A DNA stretch of 45,996 nucleotides from Thermoflexus hugenholtzii JAD2. GTDB taxonomy: Bacteria; Chloroflexota; Limnocylindria; Limnocylindrales; Limnocylindraceae. Every line of letters starts with the position of its first letter. The stretch's first letter is position 1. This document shows, one piece after another, positions 22,581-26,502 of the stretch. The translations under genes were made by a program, and so were the position numbers. Below the pieces are notes generated by a model. The model had not been told where the DNA came from and ran no database searches. It worked only from the letters and a program-made list of their open reading frames with translations. The DNA is taken from positions 1-45,996 of the forward strand of contig CAMAXG010000003.1 of the NCBI GenBank assembly GCA_945862225.1, given 5' to 3'.

Positions 22581-23471
22581 TTAGATCCCTGAACCCTCGG
22601 CAGCGAGCTCGTCGGTGCGCACGCGTGCCTGCGAAAGTTGGCTCCCAGCAGGAACGCTCTTCGTCAGCCATACGTTGCCGCCGATCGTTGAACCGCGTCC
22701 AACGGTGATGCGACCCAGGACCGTCGCCCCGGAGTAGATCACCACGTCGTCTTCGATGATCGGGTGCCGAGGCTGGCCCTTTACGAGGTTGCCGTCTTCA
22801 CCCTTCGGGAAGCTCTTGGAGCCAAGGGTGACGCCTTGATACAGGCGCACGCCACTCCCGATGATCGCCGTCTCGCCGATCACCACGCCGGTGCCATGGT
22901 CAATAAAGAAGCGCTCGCCAATCGTTGCGCCGGGGTGAATGTCGATTCCCGTTGCGGAGTGCGCCGCCTCCGATGCGATGCGCGGCAGGAGCGGCACGCT
23001 CAACGTATAGAGAAGGTGGGCCATGCGGTGGTCAATCATGGCGCGCACGCCAGGGTAGCCATGCAGGATCTCTGAACGGCTGCGTGCTGCTGGGTCTCCC
23101 GCAAACGCTGCGGCGATATCGCCTTCAATCAGCGTGCGAATCGCGGGGAGCTCGGCCGCGAATGCGCTCGTGACGCGATCGACCTGATCAGGGGCGAGCC
23201 CTTCGCCTGGTCGCTCAGCAGCAAAGAGCACCGTGCATCGTCGGATCTGCTCGCGCAGGCCGGCGAGCGCCGCGGTGAGATGCGCGGCTACTGCCGCATC
23301 GCCATCGGCGGCGACGCCGAGCTCGCGTGGGAAGAGTGCCGCACGCAACTCGGCCAACACGCGTGTGATCTCGCCACGCGATGGGCGGTCGCCCGCCGCC
23401 ACCGCGCCGCCCGCGAGGGCAGCGTCGGCAGCGGTGAGTGCACGACTAAGTTCGTTCACCTCAGAACTCAC
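22581..23471 (-). CDS. cysE: Serine O-acetyltransferase
   Basis: Left-handed hexapeptide core ([43 protein letters not shown]); ATGA overlap with cysK. Confidence 0.92.
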
Positions 23472-24457
23472 AGGGCGATGCCGCTGGCATCAAAGAGCCC
23501 CTCGTAGAGCGCGGTGCTCAAGTAGCGCTCGCCCGAATCTGGCAGTACCACCACGATGGTCTTCCCCGCGTTCTCTGGCAGGTGCGCCAACTTCAGCGCA
23601 ACGTGTGCGGCAGCGCCGCATGAGATGCCAACGAGGATCCCCTCTTCGCGAGCGATGCGACGCGCCATGGCGATCGCCTCTTCGTTCGTCACTGACTCAA
23701 CCTGATCAATCAGCGAGATATCAAGAATGTCAGGAACGAATCCTGGCCCGATCCCTTGAATCTTGTGCGGCGCAGGCTGATTTGGCTGGCCAGCAATGCG
23801 CTGCGCAATGACTGGGCTGGTGGCAGGCTCAACGGCAACGATGTGTACCGCCTTACCACGACCCTTCTTGAAGTAGCGAGCGACGCCGGTAATGGTGCCG
23901 CCGGTGCCACTCCCTGCAACGAAGATGTCGACCTTCCCGTCGGTGTCTGCCCAGATCTCTGGACCGGTGGTTGACTCATGAATGGCCGGGCCGGCTGGGT
24001 TTTTGAACTGCTGCAGCAGCACGTAGCGTGCAGGATCTGATGCGGCAATCTCTTCCGCCTTCGCGATCGCGCCGGGCATTCCCTTTGCGCCCTCGGTAAG
24101 CACCAGCGTTGCGCCGTAGGCAACGATGAGCTTGCGTCGCTCAATGCTGACGGTGTCGGGCATGGTGAGGGTGACCTTGTAGCCGCGTGCCGCACCAACC
24201 ATCGCCAAGGCAATGCCGGTGTTGCCGCTCGTTGGCTCAACGATCTCTACGCCTGGCTTCAGTACGCCGCGCTTCTCGGCGTCGAGCACCATGGCGGTGC
24301 CAAGTCGGCACTTCACGGAGTAGGCAGGATTGCGCCCCTCAACCTTGGCAAGCACCGTTGCGGCGGCGCCGTCGGTGACGCGGTTCAGGCGCACGAGTGG
24401 CGTACCGCCAATGGTGATCGCGTTGTCGGAGAAGATCTCTGGGTTCTGAACGCTCAT
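23468..24457 (-). CDS. cysK: Cysteine synthase A
   Basis: [57 protein letters not shown]; atypical PLP-lysine context NPAYSVKCR. Confidence 0.95.
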
Positions 24458-24538
24458 GTCGGGTACCTCCAGCTACATGGTGGGTGGTGGACTACATCCG
24501 CCGCCCCCTCTGCCGTTTGGTCCCTGGTTGCGATCGCC

Positions 24539-24631
24539 TCAGCGCGCGCAGGACGGCCCGAAGGAGAGCGACGGGCATCGACAGATGCTCGGCTCGCCAG
24601 CGGCTTGGGCAATGAGGTCAGCTGCGGTCAT
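24539..24631 (-). CDS. Candidate leaderless Cys-containing leader peptide (MTAADLIAQAAGEPSICRCPSLSFGPSCAR) upstream of cysK-cysE
   Basis: TACGAT-N6-ATG (24643-24638, spacer 24637-24632); 30 aa with CRC and SC; ends 81 nt before cysK ATG. Confidence 0.45.
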   Translation of the reverse strand: MTAADLIAQAAGEPSICRCPSLSFGPSCAR

Positions 24632-24685
24632 ATGGATATCGTATCGCCTACGCGTGGAGGTCGTTACTGCAACGTCTCGCAACCG

Positions 24686-25270
24686 CTAGATGCGGCGCGT
24701 GACCCCATCAATGAAGCTAAGGAGGCTCCCCTTGCGAAGGGTGGGGGTGATCCAGAGGCGCCAAAGCGCGGCAACAACCTTCAGTGCGAGGTAGATCGCA
24801 AGTGCCCCGGCCGCTCGGGCCATGATGTCGTGCACGTCGATCCGATACGGCGGTACTGGGCTCGAGAAGTAGTTAGAGAAGCCCTGGCTGATCTCGAGGC
24901 CCACCGCAATGATGCCGATGACCGCAAACGCTGCGCGTCGGGCATCGCCATAGAGGGCAAGGGTTGCGAGCAAGAATGTTGATGCGCCCATGCTGACCTG
25001 CACCAGCAGCCACTGCGTTTGCAGAAGGGCAGGGTCAAAGTCCATAAATGGAATCAGGCGGATCACATCGCTGCCGAGCGGAGCACGCGACCAATCAGAG
25101 TTGGGAAATCCGAACGGTGCCCAAACGTAGGCGACGAGGGCGGCAAACGCGATGGCACTCACCATCGTTCCGCGGGATTGATGGATGCGCTGCGACCGCT
25201 GCACAAACAGCACAACAAGGAAGCTAACCAGCCCCCCGATGATGCCCGTCCAGTCCCACTGCGCCAGCAT
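24686..25270 (-). CDS. VanZ-like membrane protein
   Basis: RLIPFMDFDP..., GLEISQGFSNYFSS...YRIDVHDIMARAAGALAIYL. Confidence 0.75.
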   Translation of the reverse strand: MLAQWDWTGIIGGLVSFLVVLFVQRSQRIHQSRGTMVSAIAFAALVAYVWAPFGFPNSDWSRAPLGSDVIRLIPFMDFDPALLQTQWLLVQVSMGASTFLLATLALYGDARRAAFAVIGIIAVGLEISQGFSNYFSSPVPPYRIDVHDIMARAAGALAIYLALKVVAALWRLWITPTLRKGSLLSFIDGVTRRI

Positions 25271-25332: not shown

Positions 25333-26502
25333 ATGAATACTCGAGAGCGCATGCAGCTCTTTCTTCGCAGCGAGACCGTGGGTGGCGCGCTGCTGATCGC
25401 TGCAGCGCTCATCGGCATCCTCCTGGCGAACAGCCCCCTCTCAGAGGTACTGCGCGCCGTTGCCACGACGCAGATCGGCAGCGACGCGCTCCACCTGAAC
25501 CTCACCGTGCAGGAGTGGGCCGCGGATGGGTTGCTCGCCATCTTCTTCTTTGTGATCGGCTGCGAGCTCAAGCATGAGCTGGTGGTGGGCACACTCTCGA
25601 AGCCGCGCCAGGCGGCCCTGCCGGTTGCCGCGGCACTCGGCGGGATGATCGTTCCAGCGCTCTTCTACGTTGCAATCAATCAGGGCGGTGCCGCCGATGC
25701 GCTCAGCGGCTGGGGTATTCCGATGGCCACAGATATCGCCTTCGCCCTCGCAGTGCTTGCGGTGCTCGGTCGCGGACTGCCCACTGGCGTGCGCACCTTC
25801 TTGCTGACACTGGCGGTGGTCGACGATCTCGGAGCGATTCTAGTAATCGCACTCTTCTACTCCGCGAGCCTGCACGTAGAGTGGCTAGTCATTGCAGCGG
25901 TGCTGCTCGCACTCTTTGCGATCGCGCAGCGACAACGCATCACCTCACCGCTCATCTACGTGCCCCTTGCACTCGGCACCTGGTACGCCGTGCATAGTGC
26001 TGGGATTCATCCAACGATCGCGGGCGTTGCCCTCGGGCTACTGATGCGCGTCAAGAAAGATCCTGGCGAGCAAGATGCACCCGTTGACCGCGCAACGGAA
26101 CGCTTCCATCCCATCAGTGCGGCGATCGCCGTGCCGCTCTTCGCCCTCTTCGCCGCTGCAGTTGACCTTCGCTCCATCGACCTCGGTGCGGTAACCGGTT
26201 CGCCAATTCTGCTCGGCGTACTTGTTGGCCTTGTCCTCGGCAAGCCAATCGGCATTCTTCTCGCCGCCCGGCTTGCAACCGCGCTAGGGGCGAAGCTTTC
26301 GGCGGGCATGCGCTGGATTGACATCGCCCTCGTTGGTGCACTTGGAGGGATCGGCTTTACCGTCTCGCTGCTCATTAGTGAGCTCGCCTTTGCTAACGAG
26401 GCGTCGCTCGGTGCCGCCAAGATTGGCGTCTTGATCGCGTCAGTTGCCGCAGTTGCACTCGCTGCCGTTGTTCTCGCCCTGCGGCGATCACTCGCTCGCT
26501 AG
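25333..26502 (+). CDS. nhaA: Na+/H+ antiporter
   Basis: FFFVIGCELKHELVVGTL, GWGIPMATDIAFALAVLAVLGRG, LTLAVVDDLGAI. Confidence 0.97.
   Translation: MNTRERMQLFLRSETVGGALLIAAALIGILLANSPLSEVLRAVATTQIGSDALHLNLTVQEWAADGLLAIFFFVIGCELKHELVVGTLSKPRQAALPVAAALGGMIVPALFYVAINQGGAADALSGWGIPMATDIAFALAVLAVLGRGLPTGVRTFLLTLAVVDDLGAILVIALFYSASLHVEWLVIAAVLLALFAIAQRQRITSPLIYVPLALGTWYAVHSAGIHPTIAGVALGLLMRVKKDPGEQDAPVDRATERFHPISAAIAVPLFALFAAAVDLRSIDLGAVTGSPILLGVLVGLVLGKPIGILLAARLATALGAKLSAGMRWIDIALVGALGGIGFTVSLLISELAFANEASLGAAKIGVLIASVAAVALAAVVLALRRSLAR

Follow-up and report, generated by a model that had tools for sequence, protein, structure and literature searches.

The cysK-cysE locus and its upstream ORF

In the window (the whole stretch of DNA analyzed, 45,996 nt), a cysK gene and the cysE gene which overlaps it are preceded by a short, hitherto unannotated ORF containing three cysteine codons. 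The features of the region are the following:

22581-23471, minus strand: cysE/epsC-type serine O-acetyltransferase gene, overlapping the cysK stop codon (NF041874, 160.5 vs. a cut-off of 150)
23468-24457, minus strand: cysK, cysteine synthase A gene (TIGR01139, 447 bits vs. a cut-off of 351)
24539-24631, minus strand: leader ORF, 30 codons, MTAADLIAQAAGEPSICRCPSLSFGPSCAR and a stop; frame, start, stop and Cys codons kept in nine genomes
24548-24550, minus strand: Cys28 codon, TGC, invariant in nine cysK leaders
24575-24577, minus strand: Cys19 codon, TGC, invariant in nine cysK leaders, with no counterpart in sister leaders of the genus
24581-24598, minus strand: GEPSIC core, codons 12-17, ending in the TGT of Cys17 (24583-24581), common to three leader types with differing codons
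24638-24643, minus strand: -10 box TACGAT, 6 nt 5' of the leader ATG; TANNNT at -6 in nine of nine cysK leaders
24663-24673, minus strand: GTTGCAGTAAC, an imperfect palindrome in the promoter region, near-invariant in nine genomes, the flanking upstream DNA having diverged

The layout given in the original prediction is exact. TACGAT (24643-24638) is followed, after six bases, by the ATG at 24631, the leader stop (24541-24539) lies exactly 81 nt before the cysK ATG (24457), and cysK has its own GGAGG at 24470-24466; the three Cys codons counted there are likewise those found, at positions 17 (TGT), 19 (TGC) and 28 (TGC). The leader transcript is predicted, from promoter spacing only, to be leaderless. 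GTTGCAGTAAC is a putative activator site, repressor site or upstream promoter element. Compared with NCBIfam and Pfam, the leader peptide matched no family above its cut-off. Upstream of the leader, the same strand carries a gene for a weakly VanZ-like membrane protein (24686-25270); the gene at 25333-26502, divergent from the leader, presumably encodes a NhaA-type antiporter, a name taken from its sequence. The DNA immediately 5' of the leader is different in some congeners.

The genome which includes the window is a 1.1-Mb draft from a freshwater member of the Chloroflexota; 19 congeneric genomes were compared. A cysK of the window type resides in 9 of the 19, and the leader is found upstream in all nine, the leader region being 93-100% identical over 152 nt. 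The locus was also spotted in Candidatus Aquidulcis sp. (QWRK01000006.1); four other near-identical loci belong to Chloroflexi MAGs. All nine leaders retain the ATG, the frame, the stop, the three Cys codons and the -10 box at 6 nt from the ATG. An alignment of cysK upstream regions had been proposed as a check, loss of the frame or of the Cys codons speaking against a regulatory leader; no such loss was observed.

Conservation is not uniform along the region. Codons 1-8 of the leader vary among the nine genomes, and the upstream intergenic DNA has drifted, with the exception of GTTGCAGTAAC and the -10 box. In leader codons 9-31 none of the 13 four-fold sites is variable; cysK has 129 of 168 variable (77%; binomial p about 6e-9, a guide only, as the genomes are related). 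Residues 24-25 vary in the same set (FG, FE or IW), and the conserved nucleotides extend to non-coding positions 3' of the leader stop. Frozen four-fold sites, together with amino acid changes at codons 24-25, indicate that the constraint is partly exerted on nucleotides, as expected if the 3' half of the ORF doubled as an RNA element.

Sister leaders in the genus and in the class

The GEP-x-I-C core was searched in the 19 genomes by the degenerate pattern GGNGARCCNWSNATHTGY, using the reversed pattern as control. Thirty sites were retrieved, 29 of which are leaders, and the control gave none. Nine of the leaders precede cysK, 12 DUF4395 and 8 a rhodanese-type sulfurtransferase gene. All 29 lack an SD, feature TANNNT 6-7 nt 5' of the ATG, and precede sulfur genes, be it cysK-cysE, the DUF4395 operon or the rhodanese-type sulfurtransferase. 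DUF4395-type leaders (MSAA..IA..AGEPSICR.., 12 loci) lie directly after sufS- and sufU-like genes, and in one subgroup are followed also by a rhodanese/MoeB-like gene and the native cysK. The sulfurtransferase-type leader, MTSTQLRALEGEPSIC and a stop, has 16 residues and is found at 8 loci (e.g., L278, at G008:C43:3104-3121, minus strand; the seven others are among L275-L283); its sole Cys codon directly precedes the stop (EGEPSIC). The window's genome hosts two leaders, that of cysK and one before DUF4395 (G000:C15:6146-6057, minus strand).

GEPSIC amino acids are constant among the three leader types, codons are not, Ser being encoded by AGC, TCG or TCC, with variation also in GGN and GAR. 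In the genus, sulfurtransferase leaders all have a single Cys codon, as do most of the DUF4395 leaders, and the cysK leader has Cys-Arg-Cys. As the Cys pair is restricted to the cysK copy and most sisters have one Cys, what the leaders share is a GEPSIC core with TGT as its last codon, rather than a run of Cys. The cysteine-responsive leader of the original prediction is thus supported by the conservation of frame and Cys codons in 9/9 genomes and from GEPSIC paralogues at two other sulfur loci, the Cys pair on which it drew being peculiar to the cysK copy. Every leader examined encodes the final Cys of the core by TGT, although the share of TGT among Cys codons is 25% in the window and 17% for the class loci. 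Universal TGT would fit a decoding role, though relatedness inflates the TGT count.

In other families of the class, ORFs starting with ATG or GTG, predicted to be leaderless and featuring a CxC(R/L/P)R-type core, are located 196-269 nt 5' of the DUF4395 domain at 18 of 40 further loci; MTSELLRLHEGEPCICRRRGPAAE and MSTSDHLALTGECCSCLRRVPARSMVVVNR are examples. These leaders were chosen partly by promoter and Cys pattern, and neither feature is therefore independent evidence outside the genus. A profile search added three looser cases, and some leaders in these families carry CC or CxC. An earlier scan of 30 DUF4395 loci had returned only one Cys ORF, of a different kind. Strong matches to the profile were confined to the class in a phylum-wide search, most weak matches being chance-like, and a class-wide DNA search gave, outside the genus, only chance-level matches (the G002 paralogue is inside the genus). 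A GC hairpin, CGCCGGC GAGU GCCGGCG, is often found directly after the Cys codons of CxCRR leaders of other families (L127-L156, L248, L249, L260).

Predicted pairings and proposed mode of control

Three segments of the leader RNA are relevant to folding:

24549-24557, minus strand: segment 1, GCCGTCCTG, 3' end of the ORF, proposed anti-sequestor strand, pairing with segment 2 according to RNAalifold (nine leaders)
24512-24526, minus strand: segment 2, CAGGGACCAAACGGC, nearly invariant in sequence, partner of segment 1 or of the SD strand
24461-24474, minus strand: segment 3, AGCTGGAGGTACCC, which includes the cysK SD GGAGG (24470-24466), predicted partner of segment 2 via GGUACCC and GCUG

A near-unchanged ORF in nine genomes, and sister copies before sulfur genes, make a cysteine gauge the most likely function of the leader. 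The reading we prefer, to which a probability of about 0.7 is assigned, is that the ORF encodes a leader peptide, translated from a leaderless transcript, through which cysteine supply governs cysK-cysE in cis, by translational attenuation with masking of the SD. With charged tRNA-Cys scarce, the ribosome would stall at the UGU and UGC codons 17 and 19, and segment 1, left free, would pair with segment 2; as segment 2 is held by segment 1, the cysK ribosome-binding site would be unmasked and the enzymes made. With cysteine plentiful, the ribosome would reach the stop and cover segment 1, segment 2 would bind the SD strand, and translation of cysK would be restrained. We infer both the cysteine-dependent stalling and the translational output. 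The parts of this reading differ in strength: it is very likely that the conserved leader-peptide regulator is real, likely that the leader senses cysteine, and plausible that SD masking operates in the window's copy, where, even with a genuine leader, the pairings given here may not be the right ones.

In the window, RNAalifold predicts an anti-sequestor made by GCCGUCCUG and CAGG(GACCAA)ACGGC, and the predicted SD-masking helix is GGGACC/GGUACCC. No hairpin masking the SD had been recognized by eye; a long-range candidate was found (24524-24519 with 24467-24461, minus strand), yet shuffled sequences fold as well, the anti-sequestor being equalled by 24% and the SD pairing by 35% of shuffles of this GC-rich RNA. 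The stability of the window leader, folded as a single sequence, is not unusual (z 0.94), and the near-invariance of the nine cysK leaders makes a covariation test impossible there.

Variation is found among the other leaders. In most of them, folding places the downstream SD in a long-range helix after the ORF, predicted as CACCUC/GAGGUG or UCAGGCU/AGCCUGA in the genus, as CUCCAGC/GCUGGAG or CUCCGGG/CCCGGAG outside it. Among DUF4395 leaders of another family of the class, the flanks of CUCC agree with those of GGAG more closely inside one leader than across leaders (permutation p=0.0016, with relatedness ignored). Pairing of the masking strand with the ORF 3' end shows a compensated change in one DUF4395 subgroup (from GACUUCU/AGAAGUC to GACCCCU/AGGGaGUC), and is found in another as CCUG(C)GACC with GGUC(GAU)CAGG. 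When a ribosome was walked along co-transcriptionally folding RNA, pairing of segment 2 with the ORF was seen in 9/9 cysK leaders as long as the A site was at Cys19 or before, and was gone beyond about codon 22; several other leaders switched near their Cys codons. SD opening in an equilibrium walk did not change sharply with ribosome position, so that the model requires co-transcriptional folding. No U-run follows hairpins in the 81-nt gap between leader and cysK, which hence lacks an intrinsic-terminator layout, and this favours translational control.

Other readings were weighed against attenuation. Arrest by the nascent GEP[SC]xC peptide, cysteine or charged tRNA-Cys being the ligand or trigger, in place of plain codon starvation, is a tentative alternative. 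It would explain why GEPSIC residues stay constant in three leader types despite codon change, and would fit the single Cys codon found in all sulfurtransferase leaders of the genus, where it stands just before the stop, and in most of its DUF4395 leaders. Yet other CxCRR leaders of the class do without GEP (QQCSCRRR, GRCSCRRR), common ancestry of the copies accounts for part of the conservation, and conservation of the TGT codon itself points to decoding. An extended form of the idea, just as speculative, is that GEP[SC]xC is a pausing motif which turns one UGU codon into a cysteine sensor, a portable module which would have spread to three sulfur loci in the genus, and been placed before the acquired cysK-cysE (see below) for native control.

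Rather less probable is a Rho-dependent output, by which the ribosome would leave when cysteine is plentiful and the C-rich CCACCACCCACC in the untranslated 81-nt gap would recruit Rho, stalling or slow translation preventing this. The lack of a U-run terminator, the conservation of the C-rich stretch and a window SD-masking fold no better than chance are all consistent with Rho, which has also been proposed for mycobacterial cys leaders, where terminators are missing (Seliverstov et al. 2005, PMC1262725). On the other hand, SD masking covaries in sister leaders, and segment 2 is conserved exactly where masking needs it.

It is quite improbable that the ORF product is a small functional protein (e.g., metal- or thiol-binding) with no role in cis. 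The conserved N-terminal and GEPSIC residues, and the three Cys of the cysK copy, would suit such a protein, but it would not require frozen four-fold sites; residues 24-25 vary (FG, FE, IW), the sister MTSTQLRALEGEPSIC stops right after Cys, and every copy precedes sulfur genes. Least probable of all is a conserved RNA element (riboswitch, T-box, protein site) with an accidental open frame. Nucleotides are strongly conserved, also past the stop in non-coding sequence, which would suit such an element; but no Rfam covariance model (riboswitch, T-box) matches 24440-24720 even at E=1, and paralogous leaders of different nucleotide sequence have the start codon, the -10 spacing and the peptide core in common.

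Known cysteine leaders and the origin of cysK-cysE

Leaderless Cys-rich ORFs are found upstream of mycobacterial cysA2 (Msmeg_5788), nirA (Msmeg_4527) and Rv0485 (Shell et al. 2015, PMC4633059), and were later shown to be cysteine-responsive (Canestrari et al. 2020, as reported in papers citing it). The window has in common with them a short Cys ORF, leaderless by prediction, before sulfur/cysteine genes, with no terminator, and one of the sister leaders in the genus precedes, as at cysA2, a sulfurtransferase gene. In contrast, the leaders described here belong to a different phylum, feature a GEPSIC/GEPCxC core in place of a terminal Cys run, often have one Cys codon, always TGT, and in the sisters a covarying SD-masking helix. 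The analogy to mycobacterial polycysteine ORFs drawn in the original prediction holds for a Cys ORF directly before cysteine genes, not for consecutive Cys codons (Cys-Arg-Cys here, mostly a single Cys in the sisters).

Seliverstov et al. (2005, PMC1262725) also proposed Cys leader peptides, in Mycobacterium and Propionibacterium before cys operons and in Bifidobacterium before cbs. These candidates are similarly Cys-codon leaders before cysteine genes with no obvious terminator, but have Cys runs near the stop, and an SD-masking element was not described. In Streptomyces lividans, metNIQ is preceded by the leaderless leader metL, MSTTSDRTPATEATTTPGARCMCRRMCAF, annotated as methionine-dependent (PMC8079986). 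Leaderless as the leader here is predicted to be, it shares CxCRR with DUF4395 leaders of the class; it differs in phylum (Actinomycetota) and in its annotation, and the likeness is one of motif. Its CxCRR..C pattern suggests that metL may be a cysteine leader.

A literature search on leader peptides of Chloroflexota found no earlier description. Cysteine attenuation by leaderless leader peptides would be extended from Actinomycetota to Chloroflexota, with TANNNT-N6/7-ATG...GEP[SC]xTGT as a searchable signature. Many parallel leaders, in which the sensing codon is fixed and the pairing strands change, make the mechanism testable in a laboratory host.

CysK of the window is 74-75% identical to proteins of Burkholderiales and other freshwater Pseudomonadota, and 39-51% to CysK of its own genus and order. 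Sister species have a native CysK, encoded in one subgroup within the leader-DUF4395 operon, and the CysK of the window clade is 39-41% identical to it. In a tree the window-clade CysK nests among freshwater Pseudomonadota (98/91 with a proteobacterial MAG); the bacteria included were picked by similarity to the query, and the donor is therefore only indicated. Horizontal acquisition of cysK-cysE from Pseudomonadota is probable. In 74 of 75 cysK loci of other bacteria, no leaderless ORF with at least 2 Cys was found upstream, the remaining one being a weak case; such a leader is hence not a general feature of cysK, nor obviously derived from the donor.

Similarity to the DUF4395 leader is seen in the cysK leader and in parts of the promoter in front of it; most simply, cysK-cysE was acquired horizontally and placed behind a copy of the native leader. 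As cysK is apparently foreign, a native leader seems to have been placed before a foreign gene, which suggests a route by which a horizontally acquired biosynthetic gene may be put under a native sensor. The end of the sufU-like gene upstream of some DUF4395 leaders carries, at a comparable distance, a sequence similar to GTTGCAGTAAC, TTGCAA..GCAGTAA, which hints at this region as the source of a copied cysK promoter.
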